A DNA stretch of 25,971 nt from a virus: positions 1 through 25,971 of IMG/VR virus record IMGVR_UViG_3300030419_003069; one strand, written 5' to 3'. The notes beneath the pieces were generated by a model. The model saw nothing but the letters and a program-made list of their open reading frames with translations. It did no database searches and was not told the DNA's origin. Position 1 is the stretch's first letter; each line of letters opens with the position of its first letter. Made by a program: the position numbers and the translations under genes. Of this stretch, positions 1,453 through 23,549 are shown in pieces.

Positions 1453-3825
1453 TTAAACCTCTATCGTTGTTCTTATATATTTATAAGCCATTGTATCACC
1501 ACTTGCTGGTGTACATAGTAATCTTACATTACCACTATTTATGTCGGCATCAAAAGTTGCCTGTGCTCCATTATCAAATATTGAAGCATATTGTGTTAAA
1601 TAAACTGTTGAGCCATCATGGAACAAGAATATTTCAATTGCTTGATAATCACTATCTGTTGAATTAACAATTTGTACTATATATTTAGCTGTTCTAAAAG
1701 CACTTGCACTAAATGAATCAAGAGCAAATTGAGTAGTTGCACTAGAACTTCCTGTTCCTACATCCATACCTGCTACTTCATCAATATGAAGTTTTTGTGG
1801 AGGATTAGTGTCTTGTATACCTAATGAACCAGCTGCCACTAATTTATCAGCAGTTGAATCCCCTGCAGTAAATGTTCCTTCAACAGTTACATTACCACTA
1901 AAAGATTGTCCTGATAAAGCATCTGATTTAAGTTCACTTGCACTTACCGCATTAGCTGCTATAGTTTCTGCAATAACAGCATTAGAAGCTATTTTAGCAT
2001 TAGTAACTTGGTTTGCTCCAATATGGATAGTATCAATACTACCTGTCACTAATTCTGCGCTATCTATTGAGTTTGCAGCTATTTCAGATGAACCTACTGA
2101 GTTAGCAGCTATTTCTGCTGAACCAATGGCATTTGCTCCCATTTTCGCATTAGTTACTGCGTCATCATTAATTTTATCTGTTTCTACTGCTGAATCAGCT
2201 AAGTGTACTACTGTAATAACATTTTGTGCTATTTCAGAAGCTCCTACTGAGTTTGCTGCTAGTAAGTCTGCTGTAATTAGACCACTTGTTATAAATGCTA
2301 CACTATTAATTGCGTTATCTGCTATTTGAGCACTTGTAACAGAGTCATCAGCCAGTTGGTCTGATGTAACTTGGTCATCATCAATATGTCTTGTTAAAAT
2401 ACTATTCTGTGCAATTTTAGTAGCATCTATTGCGTTGTCTGCAATATTTCCTGTAGCAATTGTATTCGCTGCTATTTCAGCAGTTGTAATACTTGCTGCT
2501 ACAATTTTACTTGCGTTTACAGTATTATTTGCTATTGCACTTGCTGTTCCTGTAAGGTCACCAGTAACATCTCCTTCGATATTTGCCACTAGTGTTCCTG
2601 TTGTAATTGTTAAGTCGCCTGTCGATGCTCCTGTGAAACTTCCTGTACCTACTATAAATTTGTCTGCACTTTCGTCCCAACCCATAAAGGCGTTATCAGA
2701 ACTTCCTCTCTCCATAACAATACCTGTATCATTAGAAGGAGACCCTGAAGTTCCTGTTGCTAACTCTATAAGAGGGTCAGCAATTGTTGTAGTTGTTGAA
2801 CTAACAGTTGTGGTTGTACCGTTTACTGTTAAGTTTCCAGATAATGTTACATTACCTGTGAATGTTTGTCCACCCAATGCGTCTGATTTAAGTTCAGAGG
2901 CAGATACGGCATTAGCTGCTATTTGTGTAGCTGTTACTGCGTTACCTGCTATCTCACTTGAATTAACAGCGTTTTCTTGTATTTTTGCTGCCGTAATTGA
3001 GTTACCTGCTAATTGAGCAGTATTAACTTGGGCGTCATCAATATGTTTTGTTAAAATGCTGTTTTGAGCAATTTTTGTTCCGTCTACTGCGTTATCCGCA
3101 ATATTCCCTGTTGCGATGGTATTATTTGCTATCTGTGTAGTAGTAATTAAACCATCTGGTATTTTTGCAACTGATAATGCGTTATCCGCTATCTTTGCGG
3201 TTGTTACTGCGTCACTTGCTAATTGGTCTGCGGTAACTTGCGAATCATCTATATGTCTAGTTAAAATACTGTTCTGGGCTATTTTTGTTCCATCAACAGC
3301 ATTATCTGCTATATTTCCTGTTGCTATTGTGTTTGCGGCTATTTGTGTTGTTGTTATTAAGCCGTCTGCTATGTGCGCTACCCCTATTACATTCTGTGCT
3401 ATTTCTGAAGCTGTAATAGAGTTTTCTGCGATTTCTGAACTACCAACTGCGTTGGCAGCTATCTCTGCTGATGCTACTGAATTAGCAGCTAGTTCTGTGG
3501 AAGTAACTGCATTTGCAGCTATTTTTGCACTTGTAACTGCTCCAGTTGATAAATGTATAGTATCGATGGAGCCTGTAACAAGTTCACTTGAATCTACTGA
3601 ATTTTCAGCTATCTTTGCTGCTGTAATAGCGTTATCTGCTACTGATGTTACTGCAGAAGCTTGTAGTTCTGCAGCTCCAACGGCATTAGTAGCTATTTCG
3701 GCAGCAGTAACTGCATTTGCAGCTATCTCTGACGATGCTACTCCATTTGCAACTATTTTAGCAGCTGAAACTGAGTTAGCAGCGAGAGCTTGTTGTTCAA
3801 TTAAAACCTTACCTATTAATGGCAT
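1453..3825 (-). CDS. Repeat-rich tail fibre protein
   Basis: The product is 790 residues. After 13 residues it consists of ten-residue repeats (IAANAVxxxx) at 14-311. A linker follows with 'FTGNVTLSGNLTVNGTTT' and 'AFMGWDESADKFIVGTGSF', the fibre motif in which a WDES-aD pair is typical. A second run of repeats lies at 431-631. A C-terminal part (632-790) with 'FSGNVTVEG', 'PPQKLHID' and a beta domain with 'FRTAKYIVQIVNS', 'IEIFLFHDGSTVYLTQY' and 'GNVRLLCTPA' closes it. The last domain is of a kind I know from structural proteins of cyanophages and may be the receptor-binding head. The repeats resemble those of the J-like protein. The gene lies in the same transcript as the MTD-like fibre. 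Confidence 0.82.
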   Translation of the reverse strand: MPLIGKVLIEQQALAANSVSAAKIVANGVASSEIAANAVTAAEIATNAVGAAELQASAVTSVADNAITAAKIAENSVDSSELVTGSIDTIHLSTGAVTSAKIAANAVTSTELAANSVASAEIAANAVGSSEIAENSITASEIAQNVIGVAHIADGLITTTQIAANTIATGNIADNAVDGTKIAQNSILTRHIDDSQVTADQLASDAVTTAKIADNALSVAKIPDGLITTTQIANNTIATGNIADNAVDGTKIAQNSILTKHIDDAQVNTAQLAGNSITAAKIQENAVNSSEIAGNAVTATQIAANAVSASELKSDALGGQTFTGNVTLSGNLTVNGTTTTVSSTTTTIADPLIELATGTSGSPSNDTGIVMERGSSDNAFMGWDESADKFIVGTGSFTGASTGDLTITTGTLVANIEGDVTGDLTGTASAIANNTVNASKIVAASITTAEIAANTIATGNIADNAIDATKIAQNSILTRHIDDDQVTSDQLADDSVTSAQIADNAINSVAFITSGLITADLLAANSVGASEIAQNVITVVHLADSAVETDKINDDAVTNAKMGANAIGSAEIAANSVGSSEIAANSIDSAELVTGSIDTIHIGANQVTNAKIASNAVIAETIAANAVSASELKSDALSGQSFSGNVTVEGTFTAGDSTADKLVAAGSLGIQDTNPPQKLHIDEVAGMDVGTGSSSATTQFALDSFSASAFRTAKYIVQIVNSTDSDYQAIEIFLFHDGSTVYLTQYASIFDNGAQATFDADINSGNVRLLCTPASGDTMAYKYIRTTIEV
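1933..2535 (-). repeat. Decapeptide repeat block B of the fibre gene
   Basis: Twenty units cover residues 431-631, one of which is eleven residues long. It carries a third copy of the block 'ANTIATGNIADNAIDATK' that occurs twice in block A, followed by 'IAQNSILTRHIDD'. Confidence 0.87.
2893..3786 (-). repeat. Decapeptide repeat block A of the fibre gene
   Basis: Thirty units with consensus [IL]-A-x-N-x-[IV]-x-x-x-x cover residues 14-311; one unit near residue 64 has only eight residues (DNAITAAK). Within it a five-unit block (residues 152-201) recurs at 222-271, exactly 210 bases later. Confidence 0.88.
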
Positions 3826-6954: not shown

Positions 6955-7364
6955 TATACTAACTCCACTTTAATTTTACTGGTATAATCTCTATACCCTG
7001 TCTTGGTTAGTTTTACTGTATATTCACCTGGTTTAGTGCCAGTAAAAGTAACTGTTCCATCTGCTGGCACTGTGCCAACACTAGAACCATTTAAATAAAC
7101 TGTTGTGTCTTGTGGAATACCTGTCCATGATGCGGTAGACCCCATATCTACTTTTGCCACCTCAGTAGGTGAAAAAGTTAACCAAAGTACGATATCATCT
7201 CCTGCTCCATTAACATAGTACGAATCCAAAATAATTTCTGTATCTGATTCTTTGGTAAAATGAGATACTCCCTGTGCGGCTTGAGCCGCAATAATATCAC
7301 TAGTTACTGGATTAGTAGTAATCCATGTTATTGCTGTTCCTTTGTAAAATATATTATATGTCAC
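6954..7364 (-). CDS. Small tail protein with PEGA/Ig-like C-terminus
   Basis: The 136-residue product starts with GTG at 7364, well supported by GGAGGA about seven bases upstream; the start overlaps the preceding stop by four bases. The first half ('MTYNIFYKGTAITWITTN', 'VSHFTKESDTEIILDSYYV') is unknown to me. The second half has 'TTVYLNGSSVGTVPADGTVT' followed by 'GEYTVKLTKTGYRDYTSKI', the strand order of PEGA-type or other Ig-like surface domains. Such domains in phage tail genes are often thought to bind weakly to cell surface sugars. It closes with TAATG overlapping the next gene. Role in the tail tip is inferred from position. Confidence 0.65.
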   Translation of the reverse strand: MTYNIFYKGTAITWITTNPVTSDIIAAQAAQGVSHFTKESDTEIILDSYYVNGAGDDIVLWLTFSPTEVAKVDMGSTASWTGIPQDTTVYLNGSSVGTVPADGTVTFTGTKPGEYTVKLTKTGYRDYTSKIKVELV

Positions 7365-8257
7365 TCTATATCCTCCGATTTAAAAATTACATACGAATAG
7401 TAAATTGATGGAGCTCTAGATATATAATCTACTTCATATATATCTCTAGATACATCAAGGCCTTCTGCTGCCTCATGCGCATTTGTAATAGTAAGAGTAG
7501 AAGTACTTACTGCGTGTTGAACTCCTTCGGATACTTCAAATTCTCTAATATCGCAATCTTCTCCATAATCACAGGATTCGTAATCTTCTATATACCTCAT
7601 ACACCCTGTAAATGAATTATTTGCCCAACCAATTTTAGCTGTATTAATTGAGGGGTGAGTTACTGTTGCATGTCCTGGGTCTGTTGTATCACACATATCT
7701 TCTGCAGGCATAATTATTTTTATTCTACCTGTTGGGTTATTACCATCATATGTTCCACTGTCATTAATTGTAGCTCCTGTAATTACTCCTGAAGAATTTG
7801 TGGTACATGTTACTCTTGCTCCCCAATTCCGATTTCCAATAGTATTATTTGTTGTTGAATTATTTTGATAATATCCTTTCAAATTTGAAACACTTGGTTT
7901 AAATCCGCTCCCACCACTAGTAACTGAAATACTTCCTAAGCTATAATTTTGGTCATATGAGTTATATGACCAGGTATAACTAAAAGTTGGCTGAGTTATT
8001 CCAGTCATCCAATTACTCATCTCGCTATCCATAGTCCATACTACATTTACTTTCGGTTTGTATCCTAAGCTGTGTGTAATGGTATGGGTTGCTCCCGGGT
8101 CTAATCTACCTTGTCCTCTATGAGACACTATATACGCTTGAAGCGCATCTGAATCAAACATCATCTGGTCTGTTGAAGCAGTAACATTTACACTAGGTTT
8201 ACTTACATAAACCCCTTTGTCACTTCCTCTTGTTCCTATTAATACTCTATCTACCAT
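7361..8257 (-). CDS. Tail-tip accessory protein, paralogue 3 of 3, with GGSGF and Cys-rich parts
   Basis: At 298 residues this is the longest paralogue. It opens 'MVDRVLIGTRGSDKGVYVSK' and then 'NVTAS', 'MMFDSDALQAY'. Residues about 50-75 hold 'PGATHTITHSLGYKPKVNVV', a beta segment seen in many phage tail proteins. A 'SISVTSGGSGFKPSVSN' strand pair with a later 'VITGATINDSGTY' resembles the GGxGY-type repeat domain of fibres. A segment with five Cys follows ('MPAEDMC', 'FTGCMRY', 'YESCDYGEDCDIREF', besides one earlier in 'ARVTCTTN'). That is unusual in this window and could bind metal or form disulfides outside the cell. The stop overlaps the GTG of the next gene by four bases (GTGA read as stop TGA). 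Confidence 0.7.
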   Translation of the reverse strand: MVDRVLIGTRGSDKGVYVSKPSVNVTASTDQMMFDSDALQAYIVSHRGQGRLDPGATHTITHSLGYKPKVNVVWTMDSEMSNWMTGITQPTFSYTWSYNSYDQNYSLGSISVTSGGSGFKPSVSNLKGYYQNNSTTNNTIGNRNWGARVTCTTNSSGVITGATINDSGTYDGNNPTGRIKIIMPAEDMCDTTDPGHATVTHPSINTAKIGWANNSFTGCMRYIEDYESCDYGEDCDIREFEVSEGVQHAVSTSTLTITNAHEAAEGLDVSRDIYEVDYISRAPSIYYSYVIFKSEDIE

Positions 8258-8259
8258 AA

Positions 8260-8697
8260 TTAAAATAATGCCAAGTTAGAAATTGGCTTAAATGCCCATA
8301 CTCTTAAAGTTTGAGTTGGTACTGTTGTTGTTACTGTTTGATTACCATCATCTGCACTAAAACCAAAACTAGCACTTGTTGCTAATGTTAAAGTACTTCC
8401 GCTTAATGAAGTAGTCATTGTGTTTGTTACTGGGTCATTATAATAAAAATTATTTTCATTACCACTCGCTGTAGTACTTTGTGTTGCAGTTGCTGAGCCT
8501 CCTGCTGCTACACTTCCTACATCTATGGCTTGCATAATTAAAGCAGTATCAACTTGGTCGGCACTGTTGCTACTAAATAAAAGTTCATCAGCTGAACAGG
8601 TATGTACATTAGAACCTGGACGACTTATCCATATTCCATAAACTCCTGAGCCTCCACGAGTTGTTGATGCTTGTCCTATTATTACTCTATCTACCAT
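8260..8697 (-). CDS. Tail-tip accessory protein, paralogue 2 of 3
   Basis: A 145-residue protein with the shared opening: 'MVDRVIIGQ', then 'GVYGIWISRPGSNVHTCSAD' and 'ELLFSS'. Compared with its neighbours it has an insertion of about six residues (Ser/Thr/Gly) between the IG and the 'WISRPG' strand. After residue 60 it is Ser/Thr/Ala-rich ('GSATATQSTTASGNENNFYY') and ends 'LRVWAFKPISNLALF'. It is the shortest of the three. Two bases separate the previous stop and this ATG (TAATATG-type junction). It may be an adhesin, an adaptor, or a decoration of the tail tip; nothing in the sequence decides among these. Confidence 0.7.
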   Translation of the reverse strand: MVDRVIIGQASTTRGGSGVYGIWISRPGSNVHTCSADELLFSSNSADQVDTALIMQAIDVGSVAAGGSATATQSTTASGNENNFYYNDPVTNTMTTSLSGSTLTLATSASFGFSADDGNQTVTTTVPTQTLRVWAFKPISNLALF

Positions 8698-8698
8698 A

Positions 8699-9283
8699 TT
8701 AATCCCATAATAACCCTGTATCCCCTAAACTTGGGTGATTAGCTTTTGCTGTAGAAACTCCTGCATTGCTAGTATAAGTATTACCCATAAATCCAAAACC
8801 ATTTGGTACTCTTAATACTAAAAAGGATACTGCATTAGAAGTTCTTGTTTGCACTACTTGTGAATCAACACCATACCACCAACCATAACTATTATTTTCA
8901 TTATAACCATCGTCTCCAGAACCTACAGGTTTAATAGAACTGTCAGTAAAAGCCCAACTATAAGCTAGTGCATTGTGTATTCTAAAATAATGAACATCTC
9001 CACCCCAACCACTTGCTTCTTCAGTATGTATTTTTGTACCTTGTTCAAATAGTATATAAGTAGGTATATAAGTTAAAGTTGCTTTACTTCCAGAAGTCCA
9101 AGTTAATCCACTACTACTAATACTGGATTGTGTTCCTCCTGCGTATATTTGACCATATCTTACACTTGTTGAATCAAATAATAAATCATTACTACTAGCG
9201 GTAAATACATTAGAACCGGGTTTACTAATAAAAACTCCTAATGTACTTCCATCTTTATTTCCTATTACTATTCTGTCCGCCAT
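8699..9283 (-). CDS. Tail-tip accessory protein, paralogue 1 of 3
   Basis: This 194-residue protein begins 'MADRIVIGNKDGSTLGVFIS', followed by 'KPGSNVFTASSNDLLFDS'. The same opening of about 45 residues is found in the next two genes, with a shared pattern M-[AV]-D-R-[IV]-x-IG, then G-[VI]-[FYW]-[IV]-S-[KR]-P, NV, and LLF-x-S. The rest is Ser/Gly/Trp-rich and beta-like ('HYFRIHNALAYSWAFTDSSI', 'AVSFLVLRVPNGFGFMGN') and is not shared. Its ATG overlaps the J-like stop by one base, so it is co-translated with the tip protein. The common opening could attach each protein to the tail tip while the unlike ends contact the host; this is inference. I recall similar small proteins after J in other phages, with no named function. 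Confidence 0.7.
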   Translation of the reverse strand: MADRIVIGNKDGSTLGVFISKPGSNVFTASSNDLLFDSTSVRYGQIYAGGTQSSISSSGLTWTSGSKATLTYIPTYILFEQGTKIHTEEASGWGGDVHYFRIHNALAYSWAFTDSSIKPVGSGDDGYNENNSYGWWYGVDSQVVQTRTSNAVSFLVLRVPNGFGFMGNTYTSNAGVSTAKANHPSLGDTGLLWD

Positions 9284-12200
9284 TAGTCTGCTATTACTAT
9301 CCTTTTATTTGTTGAATCTAAAATTATTTTACTGTCTGAAGTTCTTAAAACTGTTGAGTCCATAACCCAACCACCAGCTGAACCTGCACTTATTGTTAAG
9401 TTCAAACTACTTGTTGAACTAATAGAAGCTGCTGTAATATTATTTGCAGCAATCTCTGTTGTTCCTATTGCGTTTGCTGCTATTTTTGCATTTGTTATTT
9501 GGTCTGCTCCTATATGCACTGCATCAATAGAGCCCGACTTAATCTCTGCACTGTCTATAGCGTTAGCTGCTATCTTAGCTGATGTAATTGCATCTGCAGC
9601 TATCTCTGCTGTATCTACATTACCTGCAGCTATTTTAGCTGATGTAATCGAATTAGCTGCTATTTGTGGAGCAGTAACAGCTCCTGCTTGTATAACTGCA
9701 CTATTAATTGTATTACCAGCTATCTCTGAATTTGTTATAGTTCCAGCTACAACTGCTGCTGCTGTTATACTGTTAGCTCCTATTTCACTCTGTCCTATTG
9801 CGTTAGCAACTATCGCTGTACTGCCAATAGAGTTTGCTCCAATATGAGAACTATCTATTTGTCCTGCTACTATATTAATTGCTGATACTGAATTTGTTGC
9901 TATTTCTGAGCTTCCGATAGCATTTGCTGCTATTGCATCACTTCCTACTGCTCCAGTAGCTATTTTAGCTGCTTCAACAGCATCTGTTGCTAGTTGTGTG
10001 GTATCTACTGCTCCCCCTGCTATGATTATACCATTTACAGAGTTTGCTGATATTTGAGTACCACCTACAGAATTTCCTGCAATAATTGTTCCGTTAACCG
10101 CATTTGCTAGTATCTCCGAACTTCCTATTGAGTTAGCTGATATCTCTGCCGAAGCAATCGAGTTTGCTGCTACCTGAGCTGCTCCAATAGCATTTGATGC
10201 TATTTCTACAGCTGTAATTTCATTAGCACTAACTGAGAACGAATCTATCGCGTTAGTTGAAAGCTGTGTCGAATTAATAGTATTAGCGGCTATTGATGCA
10301 TTAGTAATAGTATTAGCTGCAATTAAACTATCTGTAATAGCTCCTGCTGCTATAGCTGCTGTTCCTATTGAGTTCGCTGCTATAAGAGAACTACCAATTG
10401 AACCTGCTACAATAGAAGCCGCTGTAATAGAGTTAGCTGCTATTTGTGTTCCTGATATAACATTTGCTGCTACTTCTGATGAATTATCTATTACTTGTTT
10501 ATTTGTAAAAGGAGTAATTGCAAAAGTACCTGAATTATTAGCAACCATTGCTATAATACTATCTTTACTACTATCTAATCTTAGTGCTTGTCTGTAAATA
10601 TTTTTACCACTATATGCTCTATTAGGGGCGGATACTAGTTGCATTACTGTATTACTTGTAATATTACTTACAGTTGACATAAAGCGGTCAGTACCTGCTG
10701 CATCAATTGTTACAACATCTCCCTCTTGGAAATCAAGTTTGAAAGTAGTACTTGACCCAGTTACTTTAGGCGCTCCTGAAGTCATTGTTACAGTACCATT
10801 AGCTGCAACTAAATCATTACTAGCTTCTCCCAGTCTTTTGAAGAACTTAAATCGATATTTATCTCCTGTTAGTCCATTCGTTGCTGTAGTATCTGTATGT
10901 AAATGTATTGCATGTAGTGGGTCTGTTCTAGTACTTCCACGAGCTAAATTTGCATCATAATCATATAATAAGTATCCTTCTTCTCCATCTGCCAAATTAT
11001 TAAATCCACTACAAGTTGTAAAATTAGTATTACCTGCGGACACAGCTATAGGGTCAGCTGCTCCTAATGGTTGAAAACTATATGTGCTATTGGCAAAAGT
11101 TACAGTACCAGTACTTGCATTAATAACTGGAGCAGTAGTAAGAATACCACCTTTCATTATACCACCATTTAATCCACCACCAATTAAACCACCTGTAAAA
11201 GTAGGGAATAAATTAGTCGGGAATTTAGCAGTTACTTGAATATAGTCTGAAGTTTTATTATCTGTTCTTACAGTTTGAACACGAACTTTAAATTCATCTC
11301 CTTGTTTAACATCAGATATTCTATATGATGTATGTGTATTACCTGCTAGATATTCTGTAGTCCATGAGCCAGGTCGTGCCTCTCCTGTACTATCCACATT
11401 ATGTTGAATATTATACCCTGCTAAATGTTCATATACATCTGCAAGAGCTGTTCCATCGGAGTCCGCTCTTAAACTAGCTGGGTGTTGCCAAGATACTAAA
11501 ACATCATATCCTATAGAAGCAGTTTGGTCATTTTCTAATCCTTGTGAAGCTTCATTACTTGGAACTATCTCTGCGGTTAGATTAGTAGGCGCAGGAACAT
11601 TTGTTGTTCTTTTTGGTGGTCTTAATTCTTCTGGGAATTGGGGTAATTCATAACCTCTATCCACCATATCAAATTTTACAAGGTCATAAGCTGCTGCAGT
11701 AATAGAATAGGTCATTTTATCATTTTCTTCTTTAATGCTTGTTATTATGTACTGTTTTGCACTTCCTACAGTATTACTTCCATCTGCTTTTTCTCCAACT
11801 AAAGAGAACATTGTATCTCCTGTGGGAGCTCCTGTGAATGCACTGCTTACTGTAACTGTTGAAACATTATAAGCAGATACTGCTTGTGTTTCTACTCTAA
11901 GGTCTTCACTCCAATACAAGTGTACAATCGCTCCTGCATCGTCTTTACAATTTCTAGCTTTTGCTGATGAATCTATATCTGCTCCTGTTTCATCTTCAGG
12001 AACATAATCTCCTTTATTATATACAACAGAGTTAATAGTTGCAGTTTCTTCCATTAAGTAGGCACCACCTTCAGGGTATATTAAACTTAAATAGAAGTTA
12101 TCTGTACCATTTATATAAGAAGTTAAATCTCTATCTACTTTTATTTGTGTTGTTGTTGAAGTTGCTGCATTAGTTACTCTTCCACTATACAATACTTCTC

Positions 12201-14613
12201 TTTCATCAGAGTCTTGTACATCTATCACATCACCTGGTCTAAGCGCTGCTCCTTGAATACCTGTTGCAAAAGTACACATCTCTTGTTCTAGCCCTTCACT
12301 ATATAGAATCCATTTTCCGAACCTAATAGCCTGACCTTTGGAAGTACAACCATAAGCTATTGCATCTTTACTTCTAACTTTATTAGTTTTTAAAATATCT
12401 GATTCATCTTCAACAACTTCAACTGCTTGTTTATAACTATCCTCTGGGTCATTCCAAGTAACTCTTATTTGATTATGTCTATTTCTAAGTGCTGTTCCTG
12501 AATACGAAAATTCTCCCCCTAAAACATTTGATTTATTGAATAAGTAAACGGGTCCTTTCTGTGCATTTTGACCTAGAGTAACTTGTCCTCCATGCCATAA
12601 TAACATTGACCTCATTACTTGAGCAAATTGTTGTATAGCTTTATAAGCGTCTTGTGGTTTAGATAGATAAGTATTACATGTAAATCGTGGTTCAGTTCCA
12701 CCTTCTCCATCAGGAACTAATTCATCACAATATTTTGCTACTTGGTATAATTGATATTTGTCTATTTGAGCAAAATCGCCATCTGGGTCAATAAACTGCC
12801 CTAAACCATATCTATGATTAGTGAGTAAGTCAAAAAATATCCAAGCTGGATTATTACAATAAACAGGGTCGTAATTTTCAGCATGAACACTATTTGTTCC
12901 TGGAGTACTAAAGGTTTTTCTATCTCCTCTAAAATTACCGTCCCAGTCTACATACGCTCCTGTATCTGCTCCTGTCTCGACATTTCTAGTGTAAGCTGCT
13001 ACTGTTCTTCTTGCATTAGTAGTTCCACTTCTTTCATCTCTTGGGAAATAATTAGTAGGAACTTTTACTTTCATTCCATAAACTTCATAGTCCCTAGTAG
13101 GTATTTGAGAAAAATCTTCTGCATCAACTATCACTCCTGCAAATGCAGTATAAGGATAAGTTAATTTATCAGTAATTATGTTTTCTATAGATTTTATTTG
13201 AGAAGCGTTTTGTTGTGACCAATGATTCTCATCTTGGTTTACAACAGAAATTCTTTCAACTGAAACTCTATATTTATCATAAGGTTGAAAAGCAGTGGTT
13301 GGGAACTCAAAAGTGTGTACAAACGGTTGCTTAGTTTTACCTGTAATAATACCACTTGAATACCCTTTATACCTTGAGTTTGCATGATACTGGTTAATAT
13401 CATTAGTAATATTATCTCTTCCAAGAACAGTTACATCAGTATAACTACTTCCACCATCTCTTGAAAATCCAAATTTAATTCTAAACTCAGCGAAACCATG
13501 TCCTAAATCTCCTTCGTCTTTTTGTGATATAAGAGAATTAAATCCTAAATTAACTTTAATTATATCAACTTCACTAGGATTTCCGATACTCATAGCATCG
13601 GAAGTATATATTGAGGCACTAGCTGAATCATTACCTGATGGAGGGTTTTTCCAACGACTAGTTCTAGCTGCGAATTGAGCACAAGTAGGGTGTCCTGAAT
13701 AACTTGTACCCCCTTGTACTTGGTCTAAGTTTGCATTAATATTATGTGCTTTAGATGCGGAACCTGTTCCATAAGGTACACTAACATATCTTTGTTCTTG
13801 TTCCCCTGTTCTAAAGACTAGTCCAAAATTATTATAATTATAAGTAGGTAATGAATTTGGGTTTCTTGATGGGCTACTTACTTGTACAATAGCATTGGCA
13901 GTATCTATACCTCCGCCATTTGTTAATATACACTTATTATTAGAACTATCATAACTTGCTATTTTATCTACTAAGTCAATTTTTACTGTACTATTAGTTA
14001 CAGTCGTCATTGGGGCATGATTAACTTCTACTGCGGCAGTATTAATGTATCTAACTATTTTAGCTACATGGTCTGTACCATTTGGTCCTGCTTTTGCTAT
14101 TCTAATTTGTGGAGCAAGTCTCATATTTGTATCAGTCATTACATCTGTAGATGCAAAAGCTATGTCTGAAGTATCAGTACTAGTAACTATAACATTACCA
14201 GCTTGAGTAGAACATTTAGTTCCTCTTTTTGACCCACCAACTATTAATGCATATCTATCTCCATTATCTGTACTCATATTAGTAAATACATCTGGATTTA
14301 CATTATCTACAATAGTTTTAGTTGATGCAGTATATCCTGCATCGAGTGTTCTTTGTGGAGAGAAGGTGCTATATGCAGTATTACCCATAACAGGGTTTTT
14401 ATTTAAACGAACACTAGCTGGCCCATCTACTAATCCTTCAATCGGCCCTTCTGATAAAGCATCAAATATAACAGCGGTCTGCTCGGTACTACGATTGCCT
14501 ATAGCTCTCGTACCAGCATTATAATTATTAGGATTAGCTGCACTTTCTTGTTGTTGTTGTGCTGCTGCTGCCTCTTGTGCTGCTTGTGCTGCTTTTCTAA
14601 GTGCTTTTAACAT
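9283..14613 (-). CDS. Central tail tip / host-specificity protein J-like with decapeptide-repeat tail
   Basis: The product is 1776 residues. After a Gln/Ala-rich start it has 'ALSEGPIEGLVDGPASVRL', the usual J opening. A tail-tip domain with 'RNRHNQIRVTWNDPED' and 'LRPGDVIDVQDSDER' lies near residues 700-810, and a fibronectin III-like part near 1007-1133 ('VLVSWQHPAS', 'FKVRVQTVRT'). Then come a Gly-rich linker ('GGLIGGGLNGGIMKGGIL'), a beta-rich part, and about 35 ten-residue repeats of the type IAANSIxxxx at residues 1381-1730. The final 46 residues contain 'GGWVMDSTVLRT'. J proteins form the trimeric hub and receptor-binding spike of lambda-like tails. The repeat region is not a usual J feature; it may form a long beta-solenoid shaft carrying the tip. 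Lambda J has 1132 residues. Confidence 0.92.
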   Translation of the reverse strand: MLKALRKAAQAAQEAAAAQQQQESAANPNNYNAGTRAIGNRSTEQTAVIFDALSEGPIEGLVDGPASVRLNKNPVMGNTAYSTFSPQRTLDAGYTASTKTIVDNVNPDVFTNMSTDNGDRYALIVGGSKRGTKCSTQAGNVIVTSTDTSDIAFASTDVMTDTNMRLAPQIRIAKAGPNGTDHVAKIVRYINTAAVEVNHAPMTTVTNSTVKIDLVDKIASYDSSNNKCILTNGGGIDTANAIVQVSSPSRNPNSLPTYNYNNFGLVFRTGEQEQRYVSVPYGTGSASKAHNINANLDQVQGGTSYSGHPTCAQFAARTSRWKNPPSGNDSASASIYTSDAMSIGNPSEVDIIKVNLGFNSLISQKDEGDLGHGFAEFRIKFGFSRDGGSSYTDVTVLGRDNITNDINQYHANSRYKGYSSGIITGKTKQPFVHTFEFPTTAFQPYDKYRVSVERISVVNQDENHWSQQNASQIKSIENIITDKLTYPYTAFAGVIVDAEDFSQIPTRDYEVYGMKVKVPTNYFPRDERSGTTNARRTVAAYTRNVETGADTGAYVDWDGNFRGDRKTFSTPGTNSVHAENYDPVYCNNPAWIFFDLLTNHRYGLGQFIDPDGDFAQIDKYQLYQVAKYCDELVPDGEGGTEPRFTCNTYLSKPQDAYKAIQQFAQVMRSMLLWHGGQVTLGQNAQKGPVYLFNKSNVLGGEFSYSGTALRNRHNQIRVTWNDPEDSYKQAVEVVEDESDILKTNKVRSKDAIAYGCTSKGQAIRFGKWILYSEGLEQEMCTFATGIQGAALRPGDVIDVQDSDEREVLYSGRVTNAATSTTTQIKVDRDLTSYINGTDNFYLSLIYPEGGAYLMEETATINSVVYNKGDYVPEDETGADIDSSAKARNCKDDAGAIVHLYWSEDLRVETQAVSAYNVSTVTVSSAFTGAPTGDTMFSLVGEKADGSNTVGSAKQYIITSIKEENDKMTYSITAAAYDLVKFDMVDRGYELPQFPEELRPPKRTTNVPAPTNLTAEIVPSNEASQGLENDQTASIGYDVLVSWQHPASLRADSDGTALADVYEHLAGYNIQHNVDSTGEARPGSWTTEYLAGNTHTSYRISDVKQGDEFKVRVQTVRTDNKTSDYIQVTAKFPTNLFPTFTGGLIGGGLNGGIMKGGILTTAPVINASTGTVTFANSTYSFQPLGAADPIAVSAGNTNFTTCSGFNNLADGEEGYLLYDYDANLARGSTRTDPLHAIHLHTDTTATNGLTGDKYRFKFFKRLGEASNDLVAANGTVTMTSGAPKVTGSSTTFKLDFQEGDVVTIDAAGTDRFMSTVSNITSNTVMQLVSAPNRAYSGKNIYRQALRLDSSKDSIIAMVANNSGTFAITPFTNKQVIDNSSEVAANVISGTQIAANSITAASIVAGSIGSSLIAANSIGTAAIAAGAITDSLIAANTITNASIAANTINSTQLSTNAIDSFSVSANEITAVEIASNAIGAAQVAANSIASAEISANSIGSSEILANAVNGTIIAGNSVGGTQISANSVNGIIIAGGAVDTTQLATDAVEAAKIATGAVGSDAIAANAIGSSEIATNSVSAINIVAGQIDSSHIGANSIGSTAIVANAIGQSEIGANSITAAAVVAGTITNSEIAGNTINSAVIQAGAVTAPQIAANSITSAKIAAGNVDTAEIAADAITSAKIAANAIDSAEIKSGSIDAVHIGADQITNAKIAANAIGTTEIAANNITAASISSTSSLNLTISAGSAGGWVMDSTVLRTSDSKIILDSTNKRIVIAD
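9424..10473 (-). repeat. 35 in-frame 30-bp units (decapeptide repeat) in the J-like gene
   Basis: The protein splits cleanly into 35 ten-residue units with consensus I-x-A-[NG]-x-[IV]-x-x-x-x, for example IAANSIGSSE and IAANAIDSAE, with no register break from VAANVISGTQ to IAANNITAAS. At DNA level, units diverge but keep a 30-base period. Confidence 0.9.
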
Positions 14614-17291: not shown

Positions 17292-20200
17292 TTAACCGCC
17301 TCCTGGTATTAAACCACCTGGTCTTTGTTGAACTTCTATTTCTTTTTGTACTGCTGCATTAATTGCTATTGCTAACTGTTTTCCTGACTCTGCGTCACTT
17401 GTAGTATCACTACTTCCTTCTGCCATATTTACATTAATTGTTGTGTTTGTATTTCCCGCCATATTACCTTTAACTGGTATACTTCTATCATTTCCTAATG
17501 GAACTACTGCTTCTGTACCATGAAGAACTGCTCCATAACCTGATTCTGGTCCTGTTGCAACTCCTCCACCTGAGAAAGACCTTCCTGCAGGACTAAATAC
17601 TCCTCCGTATCTTCCAAATCCTAGGAAGGCTTTGAAGAATGAGAAGATTGGATTATCTCCAGTAGCTGCCTTCAGTGCAGCTGTTGTTTGTTCAACTATA
17701 GCTGCTGCCATCTGAACTTTTGCGGCTATTTCCATAACTTTTGCCGCTTTATCACTATTTCCTGCAGCTGTTGCTAACATTGCTATTCCACCACCCATTT
17801 TAGTGATGCCATCTGCAAATCCTTGGACTCCTTCATTGAAAGTTTCGGCACCTGATTTCTTTGGTGTTGTCCCTGCTCCAGCAACAATTTCTCCATTTTC
17901 TCCCGTGCCCTCTCCGTCCTTTTCCTCTTTGTCATTATTTTGTTGTATAACTACCGGAATTGAGCCGTCTAATAATTGAAGCTTACCATCATCACCAATT
18001 TGATACCCCATCTGGTTTAATACATCATACTCTCCTGCTATATCTGCTTGAGTTATCCTACCAGGAGTTACATTTGGGTCTCCTTGCCAATTTGGTCCTT
18101 GCCATTGTTGTAATCCTTGTTGCAAATAGCCAGGCGCAGTCATAGCATTAATGTTAAATCCATTTACTGTGGTAGGTATGTCTGAAAGGTCGTTTTGTGT
18201 CCAGCTGTACAGATTTCTTTGACTACGCATTGACTTCACCATGCTGTCGTAGTCCCAACCAAACGCTCCTATTTCCCAGGTAGTATCAGCACTATATTTC
18301 TCTTGACCATCTGGAACATCTACATAGCGCTGGCCGCCTGGGGCATTCTTGTCTTTTATCAGCATTTGGTCATATTTCTCTAACCATTGATTAGCTTCTG
18401 TCCACATCTTACCCTGTTCTGACTTCCAAATTTTAAAAGCTTCATCAAAACTAAGTCCACTAGGCATTGAAGAAACCTGATTTGGTCTATTTTTGAAGTC
18501 TTCTGAAGCATTAGGTCCAGTAAATCCAAGAGCAGCTAGTTTCTTAGGGTCACGATATACATCGGACTGAAAGTCTACTGCTTTCCCTTTTCTATATTGG
18601 TCCATTTCATGTTTACTAAGAGTTTCCATGAATAGTTGTTCTGCTACAGTACTACCTATAAATGCTTGACTACCTTCATATAATTCTTGACCTTCTCTTC
18701 TCTTTTCTAAGTCTTTAATTTTCTTTAATTGTATTTCTGCTCTGTCCCGAGCCAGTTTTTCTTTAGCTTCGTTTGTTCCTGTTATAGCATCGGATATTGC
18801 TGCAGCTGCATCTTTTCCACCTTCTACCACTGCTGTCTCAATTTTATCGGCTCCTGATGTAAATGCTGTTGACAGCGTGTCTGATACTGTTAGGGAGCTT
18901 TTTTCCACTGCATCGGCAATTTCTTCGCCAGGAGACTTCTCTTTATCATCTCCCCAACCTCCGAATAAATCTTCCATTAATCTTCCAGCAACTACTCTTC
19001 CCATTTCGTCAGATATAGCTTTTGTTATATTTGTACCGATTTTTGCAAAGGCATCTTCTTCGTTTCTTATAGCTCCACCGATTGCTTGTCCTAAATCTTT
19101 TTCTAAATTATTATAAATGTTGGTTACGGCTTTATTCATCATATCGGCCTGCTTCTCCAGCATTTCTAATTTTTCTCTTTCAGCTTGTATTGCTAATCCT
19201 GATAATTCGAGTTGGTATTCTAATTCTTTTCTTCTTTTCTCGTCTAAGTCTTCCATTTGTTCTGCAACAAATAGTTTTTGAAGTTCAAAAGCAACTTCCA
19301 TCTCTCTAAGTTTGAATTCTTGTTGTCCTATCTTAGCTCTATTTTTTGCCTCACGAACTGCTTTTAGTCCTAAAGTAGTTCTCTCGGCTTCCATTTGTAA
19401 CAGCATAGCTCCTAATTTGAATTCAGTTTGTTTCTCATTTATTATAAACCATGTGTCTTTCATTCTACGGGCAAAGACCATTTCGGATTCTAATTCTTGT
19501 ACGCCAAGTTCATCACCTAATTCTTTAGCAACTTTAATCATTCTTTCTAGTGCTTTTTCTTGTGTAATTATTTCTGTAATTAACTTAGAGTAAGGTAATT
19601 GTGGTAATGTCTGAATTAAATCATTTGTAATTTTTAATTCATTCTTTTTAGATTGATTATAATCTGTTACAGCTGCTGTTGCATCACCATAAAAATCAAC
19701 TAACTTCATACCTAGTTGAATATGTTCTTCCGTAATATCGTTTCCTTGATAAATTGTGGTAAATAACTCTTCTGCTCTAACATCGAATTTTCTTACTGAT
19801 TCTAGAACATTTAGCATACCTGTTTGAACTTCTGCGAACGCTTCTGGGTCTAAAACTTTATCTACTTGTAAATCCATGTACTTTCTAAGGTTAGTACCTA
19901 GGTCTGCACTTACTATTGCATTACCTATCTGCTGAATTTGCATCATTAAGCCTTTGCTTTTTAATTCCCCTTTCTCAAAACTATCTGCTACACCTTTTAG
20001 TTCTTCCCCTAAAGTGTTTAATGATTTGGATAATTCGTCAGTTTCTTTTCTAAATTTTACTAGATTTTCTGGGTCAGGATTAAAAAATTTCCATGCTTGA
20101 ACAACCATTTGAATTGCGATTACAGCTATACCTAACCACCCAGCAAAACTCATTAAACCAACTAATGCTTGTTGTAGTATCTTCATAGACCCGATAAATT

Positions 20201-21449
20201 TTCCATATTCGGCAAGCATTAGGGTTAAATGCATTTTAAACCTTAGTCTAATTTTCTTAAATCCTGTTGCTTCATCTATTTCTCTTTGTTTTATTAATAA
20301 CTTAAGCTCCATTCTAAGTCTTTTTTCTTGAGCTAAAGTCCAAGAATGATGATTTTTTATTAGTTTCTTTCTAGTGTCTAAAGATTTTTGAAAATCTTGT
20401 AAATCTTTCTTAGTAGAAACACCCTGTTCAAGTCTTTCTAACCTTGCCTTTCCTGCTTTACCTGTACCAGTAACTTGACTTAATACATCTGTTCTCATTC
20501 CTTTGAATAGTTCAGGGGTAGCTAAAGTCTGTATACCAGGTAATAATTGTTTACCAATACTAGCTACAAAAACACCTATAGCTGCTGATGCTGCCCATAT
20601 ACTGTCTGCTAATGTTTTTCCGAAGAACTCGGCTACTGGCGCTATAGCATTTCTTATATTATTTAAAACTTCATCAAACTGAACACCTAATTGTGTTAAA
20701 GCACTAACTCTACCTTCTATTAATCCAAACTTTTCGTCTGCCTGCAAAAGAACATCATTGGCAATCGCTTGTGATTTTTGGAAAGTTGTTAATTCGTTTT
20801 TATTTAGATTTAATGCTGCTGCATATCTAGTCGTTGCTTCTTCTAGTCTTAATACGATACCTAATTCATCTAAGAGTTCGGGTTCGGCTTTTGTCACACC
20901 TCGAACAAGCCTATTGAATGAGTCTGTCGTATCTCTACCTAAAGCAATGGATACTTTTCTTGCTGCTTCACCTAATTCGTTTAACTGAGAAGGTGATAGT
21001 CCTGAAGCTAAACCTATTGCTCCTGCTTGTGAAGCTTCTTTAAAAGTTATTTGTCCATCTGTTGCCGCCTGTAAGTCTTTTGCCAAGCTTCTCATAGCTT
21101 TACCAGTTATAGCTGCGAATCGTGCTTGACCTTCTTGCAATACTCTAAAGTCTGCTGCATCTTTTAAGAAACGGAATACAGCGTCAACAGCAAATAACTG
21201 AGCTGCTAAAGTCGCATAGGCAGGCACAAGGCCTCCAGTGATACCTTGTGACATTTTTGAAAAGTTTTTTGATGCGTTAGACGACTGTTGTGATAGACCT
21301 TTCATAGCACGGTCTGTGCTATGAACATTTTTGTCTAATAGATTGAAGCCTTGACCAGTTTTTCTAGCCTTCTTCTCGGTATTTTTTAACGAACCCTTAT
21401 CATCGACCTCGATGGTAATAGTTGCGCCATGTATTGTTTGTTTTGCCAT
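17292..21449 (-). CDS. Tape measure protein (lambda H-like)
   Basis: At 1385 residues, this protein follows the chaperone pair, as tape measures do. It sets tail length by spanning the tube lumen. Residues 1-70 are polar; a helical part follows with 'GVTKAEPELLDELGIVLRL' near 185, a segment type I know from tape measures. There are two hydrophobic stretches, near 281-303 ('SAAIGVFVASIGKQLLPG') and near 428-455 ('FAGWLGIAVIAIQMVV'), which could enter the host membrane during DNA delivery. Residues about 673-785 are a long charged coiled coil. The C-terminal 100 residues are Gly-rich and contain 'HGTEAVVPL', a motif common at tape measure ends. If it is mainly helical at about 0.15 nm per residue, the tail would be about 200 nm long. 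No lysozyme or peptidase motif was recognised. Confidence 0.92.
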   Translation of the reverse strand: MAKQTIHGATITIEVDDKGSLKNTEKKARKTGQGFNLLDKNVHSTDRAMKGLSQQSSNASKNFSKMSQGITGGLVPAYATLAAQLFAVDAVFRFLKDAADFRVLQEGQARFAAITGKAMRSLAKDLQAATDGQITFKEASQAGAIGLASGLSPSQLNELGEAARKVSIALGRDTTDSFNRLVRGVTKAEPELLDELGIVLRLEEATTRYAAALNLNKNELTTFQKSQAIANDVLLQADEKFGLIEGRVSALTQLGVQFDEVLNNIRNAIAPVAEFFGKTLADSIWAASAAIGVFVASIGKQLLPGIQTLATPELFKGMRTDVLSQVTGTGKAGKARLERLEQGVSTKKDLQDFQKSLDTRKKLIKNHHSWTLAQEKRLRMELKLLIKQREIDEATGFKKIRLRFKMHLTLMLAEYGKFIGSMKILQQALVGLMSFAGWLGIAVIAIQMVVQAWKFFNPDPENLVKFRKETDELSKSLNTLGEELKGVADSFEKGELKSKGLMMQIQQIGNAIVSADLGTNLRKYMDLQVDKVLDPEAFAEVQTGMLNVLESVRKFDVRAEELFTTIYQGNDITEEHIQLGMKLVDFYGDATAAVTDYNQSKKNELKITNDLIQTLPQLPYSKLITEIITQEKALERMIKVAKELGDELGVQELESEMVFARRMKDTWFIINEKQTEFKLGAMLLQMEAERTTLGLKAVREAKNRAKIGQQEFKLREMEVAFELQKLFVAEQMEDLDEKRRKELEYQLELSGLAIQAEREKLEMLEKQADMMNKAVTNIYNNLEKDLGQAIGGAIRNEEDAFAKIGTNITKAISDEMGRVVAGRLMEDLFGGWGDDKEKSPGEEIADAVEKSSLTVSDTLSTAFTSGADKIETAVVEGGKDAAAAISDAITGTNEAKEKLARDRAEIQLKKIKDLEKRREGQELYEGSQAFIGSTVAEQLFMETLSKHEMDQYRKGKAVDFQSDVYRDPKKLAALGFTGPNASEDFKNRPNQVSSMPSGLSFDEAFKIWKSEQGKMWTEANQWLEKYDQMLIKDKNAPGGQRYVDVPDGQEKYSADTTWEIGAFGWDYDSMVKSMRSQRNLYSWTQNDLSDIPTTVNGFNINAMTAPGYLQQGLQQWQGPNWQGDPNVTPGRITQADIAGEYDVLNQMGYQIGDDGKLQLLDGSIPVVIQQNNDKEEKDGEGTGENGEIVAGAGTTPKKSGAETFNEGVQGFADGITKMGGGIAMLATAAGNSDKAAKVMEIAAKVQMAAAIVEQTTAALKAATGDNPIFSFFKAFLGFGRYGGVFSPAGRSFSGGGVATGPESGYGAVLHGTEAVVPLGNDRSIPVKGNMAGNTNTTINVNMAEGSSDTTSDAESGKQLAIAINAAVQKEIEVQQRPGGLIPGGG

Positions 21450-22261
21450 CTACTTTTTAATCTTACTTTGCCTTGCTTTGGCTCTTTGCTTTTCAGCTTG
21501 TTTTTCGTTTATCGAATTACTGTGCGTATTTTCTATATGCTTCAAAAAGTAGACTACTGTCTTTTTATCTTCAATTTCATAAATTTTGAGTAAGAGTTCT
21601 AATGATGACATGTCTTTACCCATGTACATACCACTCATACCGTCCCATCTATCTGATAGTAGCGAATATAGAAGAAATGCCTGTTGTACCTCCAAGGGAT
21701 ACATTCTCATCTCTGGAGGCATTTTTTCTGGGTCAGGCTCTTCTCCTAAGTGTTCGCATAACTGAAGATATTTATCGACATCTATGCTTTCGGAGTATTG
21801 TCTTTTAAATAAAGCAAGTATGTAATCTACTTGCTCTTGGTAAAATTTTCTAAATCTCCGACAGTTTCAGAAACCCAGTTGTCGAAATCCGCAGAGTTTT
21901 TCATCATTAACTCTGCATTCTCTTGTGACCAAGGTAGTTCGTCATCAGGGTCCTGCTTACTTACATCTACTAATAGAAGCTCTTCTAAGTACTTGTACTT
22001 TAAGCCGCTCCAGCCTTTAATAATTGCTTTACAGTATTCAGTTAAGAATTTATCATTATCAAGCTGTTCTTCGTATGACCTAGTTTTTTTATTGAACTGT
22101 TGTGATACACTACGATTTCTAAGTTTTAGCAATTCTTCTCTTGCTAAATATGTGAGATTAACTGAAAATCCTTCCATTCCTGGATAATCAATTCCCACAG
22201 TCTTGCTTGGAGTTAATAAACTCTTAAGCGATACTGGTTGTGTTTTTTGTGTTTCTGCCAC
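21450..22261 (-). CDS. Tail assembly chaperone G-T fusion made by -1 frameshift
   Basis: Reading zero frame from 22261 to 21842 and then re-reading base 21842 in the -1 frame gives a 270-residue protein: 140 residues of G followed by 130 T residues ending at 21450. The -1 frame has no stop from the slippery site to 21450. Its joining segment starts 'YQEQVDYILALFKRQYSES' and passes through 'LCEHLGEEPDPEKMPPEMR' without a break. The T part contains 'YPLEVQQAFLLYSLLSDRW' and ends in a Lys/Arg-rich tail 'AEKQRAKARQSKIKK'. In lambda the G-T form binds the tape measure through its T domain. A 90-residue reading from the ATG at 21722 is just the last part of T and is unlikely to be a separate gene. 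The tape measure gene starts one base after the stop. Confidence 0.8.
21813..21835 (-). promoter_or_regulatory. Stem-loop downstream of the slippery site
   Basis: AGCAAGTA (21835-21828) and TACTTGCT (21820-21813) are perfect inverted copies around the loop GATTACA. One further G-U and one A-U pair can extend the stem. It starts four to six bases after the slippery heptamer, the spacing at which such structures stimulate -1 frameshifting, and it includes the zero-frame stop codon. Confidence 0.7.
21827..22261 (-). CDS. Tail assembly chaperone G (short, unshifted product)
   Basis: This 144-residue protein comes before the tape measure and after the major tail protein, the position of lambda G. 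Chaperones of this type coat the tape measure and recruit tube subunits during tail assembly and are absent from the finished particle. The protein is mostly helical, with 'LTYLAREELLKLRNRSV' near residues 38-54 and 'YCKAIIKGWSGLKYKYLEEL' later. It starts with GTG at 22261, supported by AGAGGA about nine bases upstream; the GTG and the terminator just before it both suggest a reduced level. Near its 3' end is a slippery heptamer (21848-21842), so a fraction of ribosomes should shift into the -1 frame and make the longer G-T protein. Confidence 0.8.
   Translation of the reverse strand: MAETQKTQPVSLKSLLTPSKTVGIDYPGMEGFSVNLTYLAREELLKLRNRSVSQQFNKKTRSYEEQLDNDKFLTEYCKAIIKGWSGLKYKYLEELLLVDVSKQDPDDELPWSQENAELMMKNSADFDNWVSETVGDLENFTKSK
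21842..21848 (-). promoter_or_regulatory. Slippery heptamer for -1 ribosomal frameshift
   Basis: On the minus strand the zero-frame codons GAA AAT TTT ACC contain A AAT TTT, a canonical X XXY YYZ heptamer (AAATTTT) in the right frame. It lies 12 bases before the zero-frame stop TAG (21829-21827). After slippage, TAC is the next codon and the frame stays open into the T domain. Confidence 0.8.
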
Positions 22262-22322: not shown

Positions 22323-23549
22323 TTATGCTCCTACATAAGTTACTTTAACTTCGTTGGTAGCATTTGCTGCTGTTGATGATGATAAATCAGACGGTAAGCC
22401 GTGGAAGGCTACATCTACTGATATTACATCTTCAAAGCTGTGTGTTGGTAATTCCAAATGTGCTTTCGGAATTGCAACATTACATCGAGGTGTTTGACCT
22501 GAGCCACCTATACTAAATGTCATTGCAAATGCATTAGTAATTACACCTCTTGATTCTTGCATTCTTTCGAATAGGTCTAATGAACCGTTAGCAGCATCGT
22601 TTAGATAACAAGTAAAGTTACCTGATACTGACCTTGTTCCCATTACATGTCCTAATGGAAGGTTCACTGTTCCTAAAGTTTCAGGAGTTACATAAGTAAG
22701 ATTGTTTTCTATGGTAATATTACCACCTGTAAGAGTCATTGAGTAAGTTTGGTCAGATGAACTGTTACTATCCAATGCTCCTAAAGTACCTGTAGCTTCT
22801 GATACATCGAAACTGATTGCTAAATCTGTTAATTTCTGTCTAATAAAGTTAGATGTAGTATCTACACCTTCTCTTATTAATCCTTTTGCGGTGTTTCCAC
22901 CTGTACTTGTATCGAGTGCTGCAACTTCTTCAATTGTTTGTCCTTGTCCAGACCACCCAACTTGGGCGATTCCTTCAATATCAAAATCAATTGATGCTGA
23001 CCCTACTGAACAATTGGCTAGTTTATAAACTGTTACACCATCTGTTCCTGTAGTATACGCTGCAGTAGTGCTATCTTTAGCGGCTCCTAGTACAAAAAAC
23101 ATATTAAAAGTTCCAAGTGTTACTTGGTTAGAATTTGCAAAATCAAATTCCATCTTTGATGTATCGTTTGCATAGTCTCCACCACTAGACCTGTCATAAG
23201 TGTTTGCACTCATAGCAGCCCATAATGGTCCTTCTACTGCGAAGTGGCACCCGCTGTCCGCGTGGTCGCCACTGGTCATTTTAGCATTTGAGCCTGATTT
23301 TGTAGGCCTCATATAAGTACTGAAACTCCATTCAGCTGGCGCAAAAGAGTCAGTAAACATTGCTCTACCTCTTTTTGTATACCCAGTTGAACTTGCTGCT
23401 TCATTCAAAGTAATCTCCGAAGTATTTGTAGCTTGACTGAATGAGAAACCATCTAATACAGGTATTTCAAATAACGCTGTAGTAGACGCTGTTCCGTCTT
23501 CACTCCATTCCATAAATACTTTGGTATCTCTACTAAAGAAAAATGCCAT
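22323..23549 (-). CDS. Major tail (tube) protein
   Basis: This 408-residue product is beta-rich and begins 'MAFFFSRDTKVFMEW', followed by 'IPVLDGFSFSQATNTSEITLNEA'-type strands. An Asn/Ser/Thr-rich start with a 'SQ.T.tsEitl.E' segment is typical of long-tailed phage tube proteins, which stack as hexamer rings around the tape measure. It sits between the tail terminator and the chaperone pair, the usual place of lambda V. It is longer than lambda V (about 250), so the second half may hold an extra surface domain; it reads as beta strands, for example 'YSMTLTGGNITIENNLTYV'. A GGAG precedes the ATG at 23549 by about seven bases. A strong terminator lies just after the stop, as expected for a product needed in many copies. 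Confidence 0.75.
   Translation of the reverse strand: MAFFFSRDTKVFMEWSEDGTASTTALFEIPVLDGFSFSQATNTSEITLNEAASSTGYTKRGRAMFTDSFAPAEWSFSTYMRPTKSGSNAKMTSGDHADSGCHFAVEGPLWAAMSANTYDRSSGGDYANDTSKMEFDFANSNQVTLGTFNMFFVLGAAKDSTTAAYTTGTDGVTVYKLANCSVGSASIDFDIEGIAQVGWSGQGQTIEEVAALDTSTGGNTAKGLIREGVDTTSNFIRQKLTDLAISFDVSEATGTLGALDSNSSSDQTYSMTLTGGNITIENNLTYVTPETLGTVNLPLGHVMGTRSVSGNFTCYLNDAANGSLDLFERMQESRGVITNAFAMTFSIGGSGQTPRCNVAIPKAHLELPTHSFEDVISVDVAFHGLPSDLSSSTAANATNEVKVTYVGA

Follow-up and report, generated by a model that had tools for sequence, protein, structure and literature searches.

Tail assembly chaperones of phages are well known to be produced with the help of translational frameshifting, which goes in the -1 direction as a rule, with +1 shifts described both for an archaeal virus and for a minority of the annotated actinophages. 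A list of phage heptamers is said to be found in Xu 2004. In phage lambda, the proteins G and G-T are made by a programmed -1 frameshift (Levin 1993, Xu 2004, Xu 2013; reviewed in PMC5009743). According to PMC6256483, the chaperone of phage Sugarland, like that of T5, has no predicted frameshift signal. In bacteria, UUU_Ynn has also been reported as a sequence that favors +1 slippage (PMC5009743). Frameshift sites have mostly been studied singly; here, one homologous pair of genes is compared. The starting point was a stretch of 25,971 nucleotides of DNA from an uncultured marine phage (IMG/VR virus record IMGVR_UViG_3300030419_003069, positions 1 to 25,971), which is referred to below as the window and for which an initial annotation had proposed a complete -1 frameshift cassette in a tail chaperone gene.

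Results

Putative -1 frameshift cassette in the window

Gene G of the window (21827 to 22261, minus strand) encodes a tail assembly chaperone of 144 amino acids (phrog_313, E 4.7e-13), starts with a GTG at 22261 and ends on the minus strand with GAT TTA GAA AAT TTT ACC AAG AGC AAG TAG. The slippery heptamer A_AAT_TTT, which had been claimed to be in phase, was confirmed at 21848-21842 (minus strand), near the 3' end of G, and its phase is that required for tandem -1 slippage. Since in-frame X_XXY_YYZ occurs at 34 of the 7025 codons of the window's genes (~0.5% per codon), the heptamer by itself is only a modest signal. It is followed by the spacer ACCA (21838 to 21841, minus strand), which leaves 4 nt to a stem of 10 bp, or 6 nt to a stem of 8 bp. 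The exact 8-bp stem is formed by AGCAAGTA (21835-21828) and TACTTGCT (21820-21813), and the outermost pairs, one A-U and one G.U, lengthen it to 10 bp. The complete hairpin on the minus strand therefore has the 5' arm AGAGCAAGTA (21828 to 21837), the loop GATTACA (21821 to 21827) and the 3' arm TACTTGCTTT (21811 to 21820), as seen in the predicted RNA fold and, for the stem, also in covariation. The zero-frame stop TAG (21827 to 21829, minus strand) is spanned by this structure, with TA lying within the 5' arm and G being the first base of the loop. The spacer, stem and loop are thus as the initial annotation had described them. The folding energy at the site was -12.1 kcal/mol, compared with -2.8 +/- 1.9 in shuffled sequences, a strong deviation (z -5.0).

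From 21866, the -1 frame continues without interruption to a stop at 21452-21450, and it had been said to run into a T domain of 130 residues. This was borne out: the T domain (21450 to 21842, minus strand; phrog_3914, E 4.3e-19) comprises 130 codons plus the stop, with no ATG, GTG or TTG in the frame ahead of the first ATG (21720 to 21722, minus strand), which lies 40 codons past the junction and is not taken as the start of T. The G-T fusion would have 270 amino acids, 130 of them from T, with the predicted junction peptide NSADFDNWVSETVGDLENFYQEQVDYILALFK. Two other candidate elements were considered and rejected. A pairing of TCGGAG with CTCCGA upstream in a longer fold, judged by eye, is not kept by relatives, and a Shine-Dalgarno-like GGAG 5' of the heptamer is unconserved, its Gly codon being free to vary in relatives.

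Gene neighborhood and predicted folds

The gene pair lies between the major tail protein gene (22323 to 23549, minus strand; phrog_3575, E 7e-52), which is immediately upstream of G, and the tape measure protein gene (17292 to 21449, minus strand; phrog_3779, E 2e-48), which is immediately downstream of T. A tail terminator gene (phrog_3907) is also found upstream of G, and lambda-like tip genes (Phage_tail_L, Prok-JAB, tail assembly protein phrog_32 and a J-like gene) follow beyond the tape measure gene. Both phrog_313 and phrog_3914, to which G and T are respectively homologous, are T5-family tail assembly chaperones. No Pfam family, the Phage_TAC families included, matched G or T at the gathering score, either in the window or in the T5-type phages.

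The AlphaFold model of G (pLDDT 83) was compared with solved structures, of which only YqbN 3klu (Z 5.7) and the HK97 chaperone 2ob9 (Z 4.9) exceeded Z 2.7; the Foldseek E-values for the model are not significant taken alone. On this basis, a tail-assembly-chaperone fold is predicted for G. A sequence search of the PDB with the G profile gave chance-level matches only. The model of T had a pLDDT of 93 and no significant match to folds in the PDB. Considering that the first helix of T begins at residue 2 and that the last helix of the G model extends to residue 142, a continuous helix over the junction is likely in the fusion protein.

Two other features of the window were observed. At 7361-9283 (minus strand) there are three tandem genes of 298, 145 and 194 amino acids, which have an N-terminal block (MADRIVIGN..GVFISKPGSNV..SSNDLLFDS) in common and unlike C-termini; the 298- and 194-amino-acid genes had no PHROG match, and the former also had no Pfam match. 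Tail fibre-like proteins, encoded at 1453-3825 and in the C-terminal part of 9283-14613 (minus strand), contain long runs of short repeats like IAANSIGSSEIAANAVTSA.

Classes of putative shift site among homologous gene pairs

Scanning of IMG/VR and of phage records yielded some 470 loci, and 468 could be placed and classed at a conserved Phe; a contig scan of genomes gave only two fragments, both from a SAR86 bin. The loci comprise 302 distinct homologous G-T fused proteins, and in every one of them G and T join at, or one codon ahead of, one near-invariant Phe, which is invariant in alignments A2 and A10, with a conservation of at least 90% in A12, an enlarged alignment. Loci were assigned to the +1 or the -1 class by the open frame alone, and the GGGAAAC class was split off afterwards by motif. 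The -1 A/T class has 131 members (117 AAATTTT, 8 AAATTTC, 2 TAATTTT, 2 GAATTTT, 1 CAATTTT and 1 AGCTTTT), the -1 GGGAAAC class has 54, in which the slip would take place one codon upstream of the junction Phe, and the +1 TTT_CGN class has 117 (99 CGT, 10 CGA and 8 CGC). The initial annotation had asked whether related phages keep the heptamer and stem. They do so in the window's own clade, whereas farther homologues carry G_GGA_AAC (-1) or UUU_CGN (+1) instead.

Codon usage at the site was tested with one member per 80%-identity cluster, the other codons of the same genes serving as background. With p values that are optimistic because the clusters are akin to one another, the A/T class has AAT in 50/50 of the clusters with Asn there, against 66% in the background (p 7e-10), and TTT in 47/51 (p 8e-4, same-gene background); the GGGAAAC class has GGA in 24/24 (p 1e-16) and AAC in 24/24 (p 2e-11), values that are partly circular since this class was picked by motif; and the +1 class has TTT in 48/48 (p 8e-7), followed by CGN in 48 clusters versus AGR in 0 (p 3e-11). 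The codon pattern is uniform over deep branches. Natural G_, T_ and C_AATTTT sites exist, so the first base of the heptamer is, on this comparison, inessential.

Some single loci deserve mention. One -1 phage (L301) has A_AAT_TTT_CGG, that is, the -1 heptamer plus the +1 motif UUU_CGN. The fusions of L346 and L361 are at least 80% identical and have the heptamers CAATTTT and GGGAAAC, respectively, which points to a recent change or recombination. L309, L468 and L469, two of them from a SAR86 bin, are remote G homologues whose T frame did not turn up where it was expected.

Conservation of the hairpin and translation signature of the -1 frame

Manual counting gave a stem of at least 7 bp just past the heptamer in 93 of the 96 distinct sites that belong to the window's marine clade, and the mean hairpin score of the whole A/T class was 18.5, compared with 6.5 in nucleotide shuffles and 7.6 in codon shuffles (SD 0.4). 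The relatives have two stem registers, one with a loop of 7, as in the window, and one with the 3' arm shifted downstream (loop mostly 6-14). Pair 15-35 of register A is never broken, with G-C in 24, C-G in 10 and U-A in 5; in register B, covariation is seen between the third position of the stop codon and its partner (G-C 26, A-U 4, G-U 3). Covariation in the two registers was 0.206 versus 0.080 +/- 0.012 and 0.257 versus 0.124 +/- 0.016, was equalled in 0 of 500 shuffles for each register, and failed for slid pairings. From reading the codons, the compensatory pair changes alter amino acids in both frames, and coding is therefore no explanation for them. Two variants (L010/L091 and L193) have TCG in place of TAG with the stem retained. 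No hairpin above shuffles was found in the GGGAAAC and +1 classes, nor at the 11 sites of the A/T type that lie outside the marine clade, and the stem is therefore no universal feature.

Between the stop of G and the first ATG of T, the -1 frame has a dN/dS of 0.137 over ~1090 codons compared; past the ATG it is 0.189. For the +1 class, the pre-ATG comparison covers only ~130 codons, with synonymous sites saturated. The zero frame past the stop closes soon, within at most about 24 codons, and is unconserved. T thus bears the signature of translation from the junction rather than from a start of its own.

T5-type homologues

The +1 class includes T5 and all Demerecviridae sampled; we take locus L260 to be phage T5. 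In the T5-type phages (L260, Sugarland L471, PM135 L470 and others), T lies in the +1 frame, which is open from the same Phe; the annotated T start or first Met comes only 26-34 codons further on. Both genes are homologous to those of the window, since both parts align, and a T query of the -1 class retrieves T5-type T at E 2e-11. The site of the window reads UUU_ACC and is -1; that of the T5-type homologues is the +1 site UUU_CGN. For T5, the predicted +1 junction peptide is DNAVMLMQNSAAFDSWINQTVFHLDTFVAQK and the zero-frame product ends in ...HLDTFR. The T5-type isolate records examined annotate two separate genes. In the Vibrio phages of the T5 kind (L082, L084, L162, L166 and L171), there is an extra gene of ~250 amino acids between T and the tape measure gene, which is missing from the enterobacterial relatives examined.

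In a tree of 123 clusters, whose root is not fixed, the direction has to change once, whichever way it went, a result supported at 100/91 and recovered in each of the 200 bootstrap trees; in the same tree, AAATTT to GGGAAAC changes several times. As to the flanks, the -1 A/T sites are U_UUY_A in 47/51 clusters and the +1 sites are N_UUU_C in 48/48. Sites with U_UUU_C occur in both groups (13/48 of the +1 clusters and 4/51 of the A/T-type -1 clusters).

Discussion

A programmed -1 ribosomal frameshift cassette that ends gene G and gives both G and G-T, as the initial annotation had suggested, is the best explanation of the sequence, conservation, covariation, translation signature, gene position and predicted fold found here, and we put its probability at about 0.93. 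In its favor, the comparison with relatives shows selection on the heptamer, on the spacer and on the stem, the -1 frame is translated ahead of any start, and readthrough is all but excluded. Slippage would proceed as follows. While AAU occupies the P site and UUU the A site, the 10-bp hairpin 4-6 nt downstream would block entry of the mRNA, and a minority of the ribosomes would move back by one base, Phe-tRNA going from UUU to UUU and Asn-tRNA from AAU to AAA, and make G-T, while the remaining ribosomes would terminate four codons on, at the TAG in the hairpin, and release G. A point against this reading is that the Asn codon gives a wobble mismatch once slipped. By analogy with lambda G and G-T, G would coat the tape measure protein and T would recruit the major tail protein, with T joined to G by the helix that would run over the junction.

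It could be argued that T is a separate gene, started at the ATG at 21722 or by reinitiation after G, and that the overlap is incidental. The ATG is indeed present, and the isolate records examined annotate G and T apart. However, the 40 codons ahead of this ATG are under purifying selection (dN/dS 0.14), the position of the first ATG varies among relatives, a start at 21722 would cut the first helices from a confidently predicted domain, and this reading gives no reason for the conservation of the heptamer or the covariation of the stem, which makes a separate T gene highly improbable. The pre-ATG selection, together with the short unconserved zero-frame tails, speaks against an own start of T and against readthrough of the TAG alike. 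Although the stop sits within a conserved hairpin that could act as a stimulator, T is in the -1 frame, the early and unconserved closure of the zero frame leaves no readthrough product, and the stem is retained in the two variants with TCG, so that readthrough has almost no probability left. Slippage of the RNA polymerase on AAAATTTT, by which mRNA of altered length would yield the fusion, is suggested by the A/T-only run at the site. Transcription slippage requires long homopolymers, and the runs here are just four A and four T, with the A run even shortened in the GAATTTT and TAATTTT variants; the GGGAAAC homologues have no long run, and a hairpin at such spacing would be unnecessary. We regard this origin of the fusion as extremely improbable.

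A different question is whether the -1 frameshift depends on tandem slippage on the heptamer or mainly on slippage of Phe-tRNA alone on U_UUY. The U ahead of UUY is present in 51/51 A/T-class clusters, and the first base of the heptamer is variable (GAATTTT, TAATTTT and CAATTTT, with one AGCTTTT), so strict tandem slippage may not be needed. However, AAATTTY is present in 47/51 clusters, as taken from the cluster list, and the spacing of the hairpin suits tandem slippage. Slippage mainly of the single tRNA is therefore unlikely in our view, though a serious alternative.

The putative +1 shift at UUU_CGN in the T5 family is well supported. In T5 and its relatives, Phe-tRNA would move forward from UUU to UUC. 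At U_UUU_C, Phe-tRNA could re-pair at UUU (-1) or at UUC (+1), and such a site may have been a bidirectional intermediate. Because the -1 and +1 frames are one base apart modulo three, a one-base indel downstream of U_UUU_C would switch the productive direction, and since U_UUU_C could slip both ways, the fusion would be kept. We consider it probable that, at one conserved Phe codon, a single chaperone family has switched between the -1 and the +1 direction and that the T5 relatives carry an unrecognized +1 signal, UUU_CGN, with U_UUU_C being a possible bidirectional route.

The cassette in the window is an instance of a known phenomenon, tail chaperone frameshifting, and its heptamer has already been recognized in other viruses. 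In the literature searched, mostly papers available without subscription, we found no report of the +1 signal in the T5 family or of a switch of direction at a homologous codon. In one alignable gene pair, the G/G-T product has stayed constant through at least four changes of the signal and one of the direction. This suggests that the fusion and its dose, not a mechanism, are under selection. The comparison also points to a specific putative +1 site that has been missed in T5, a standard laboratory phage, and would lead to a corrected annotation for many of the matching isolate records, of which there are roughly 900.

Compared with known systems, the window resembles lambda G/G-T in gene order, in having two products, in its T, which lies in the -1 frame close to where G ends, and in the tail chaperone role. 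It differs, as the initial annotation had noted, in its heptamer (A_AAT_TTT here, G_GGA_AAG in lambda), and also in having a strong covarying hairpin that contains the stop and in the lack of a Pfam match. The "tape measure chaperones" of T5 and other Demerecviridae (PHROG 313 and 3914) have homologous G and T and the same junction Phe, but they lack a hairpin, carry UUU_CGN and have T in the +1 frame. The uncultured G_GGA_AAC phages (within L311-L389) also have homologous G and T and a -1 frame, but their heptamer is of the lambda kind, lies one codon upstream and has no hairpin. Influenza PA-X and the plant amalgaviruses, which are unrelated eukaryotic viruses, use +1 UUU_CGN as in the T5-type homologues (PMC5052127), whereas the window has UUU_ACC and -1. 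The entomobirnavirus DXV, whose gene and host are unrelated, has the same heptamer, A_AAU_UUU, which has been proposed to be prone to -1 shifting (PMC3832450).
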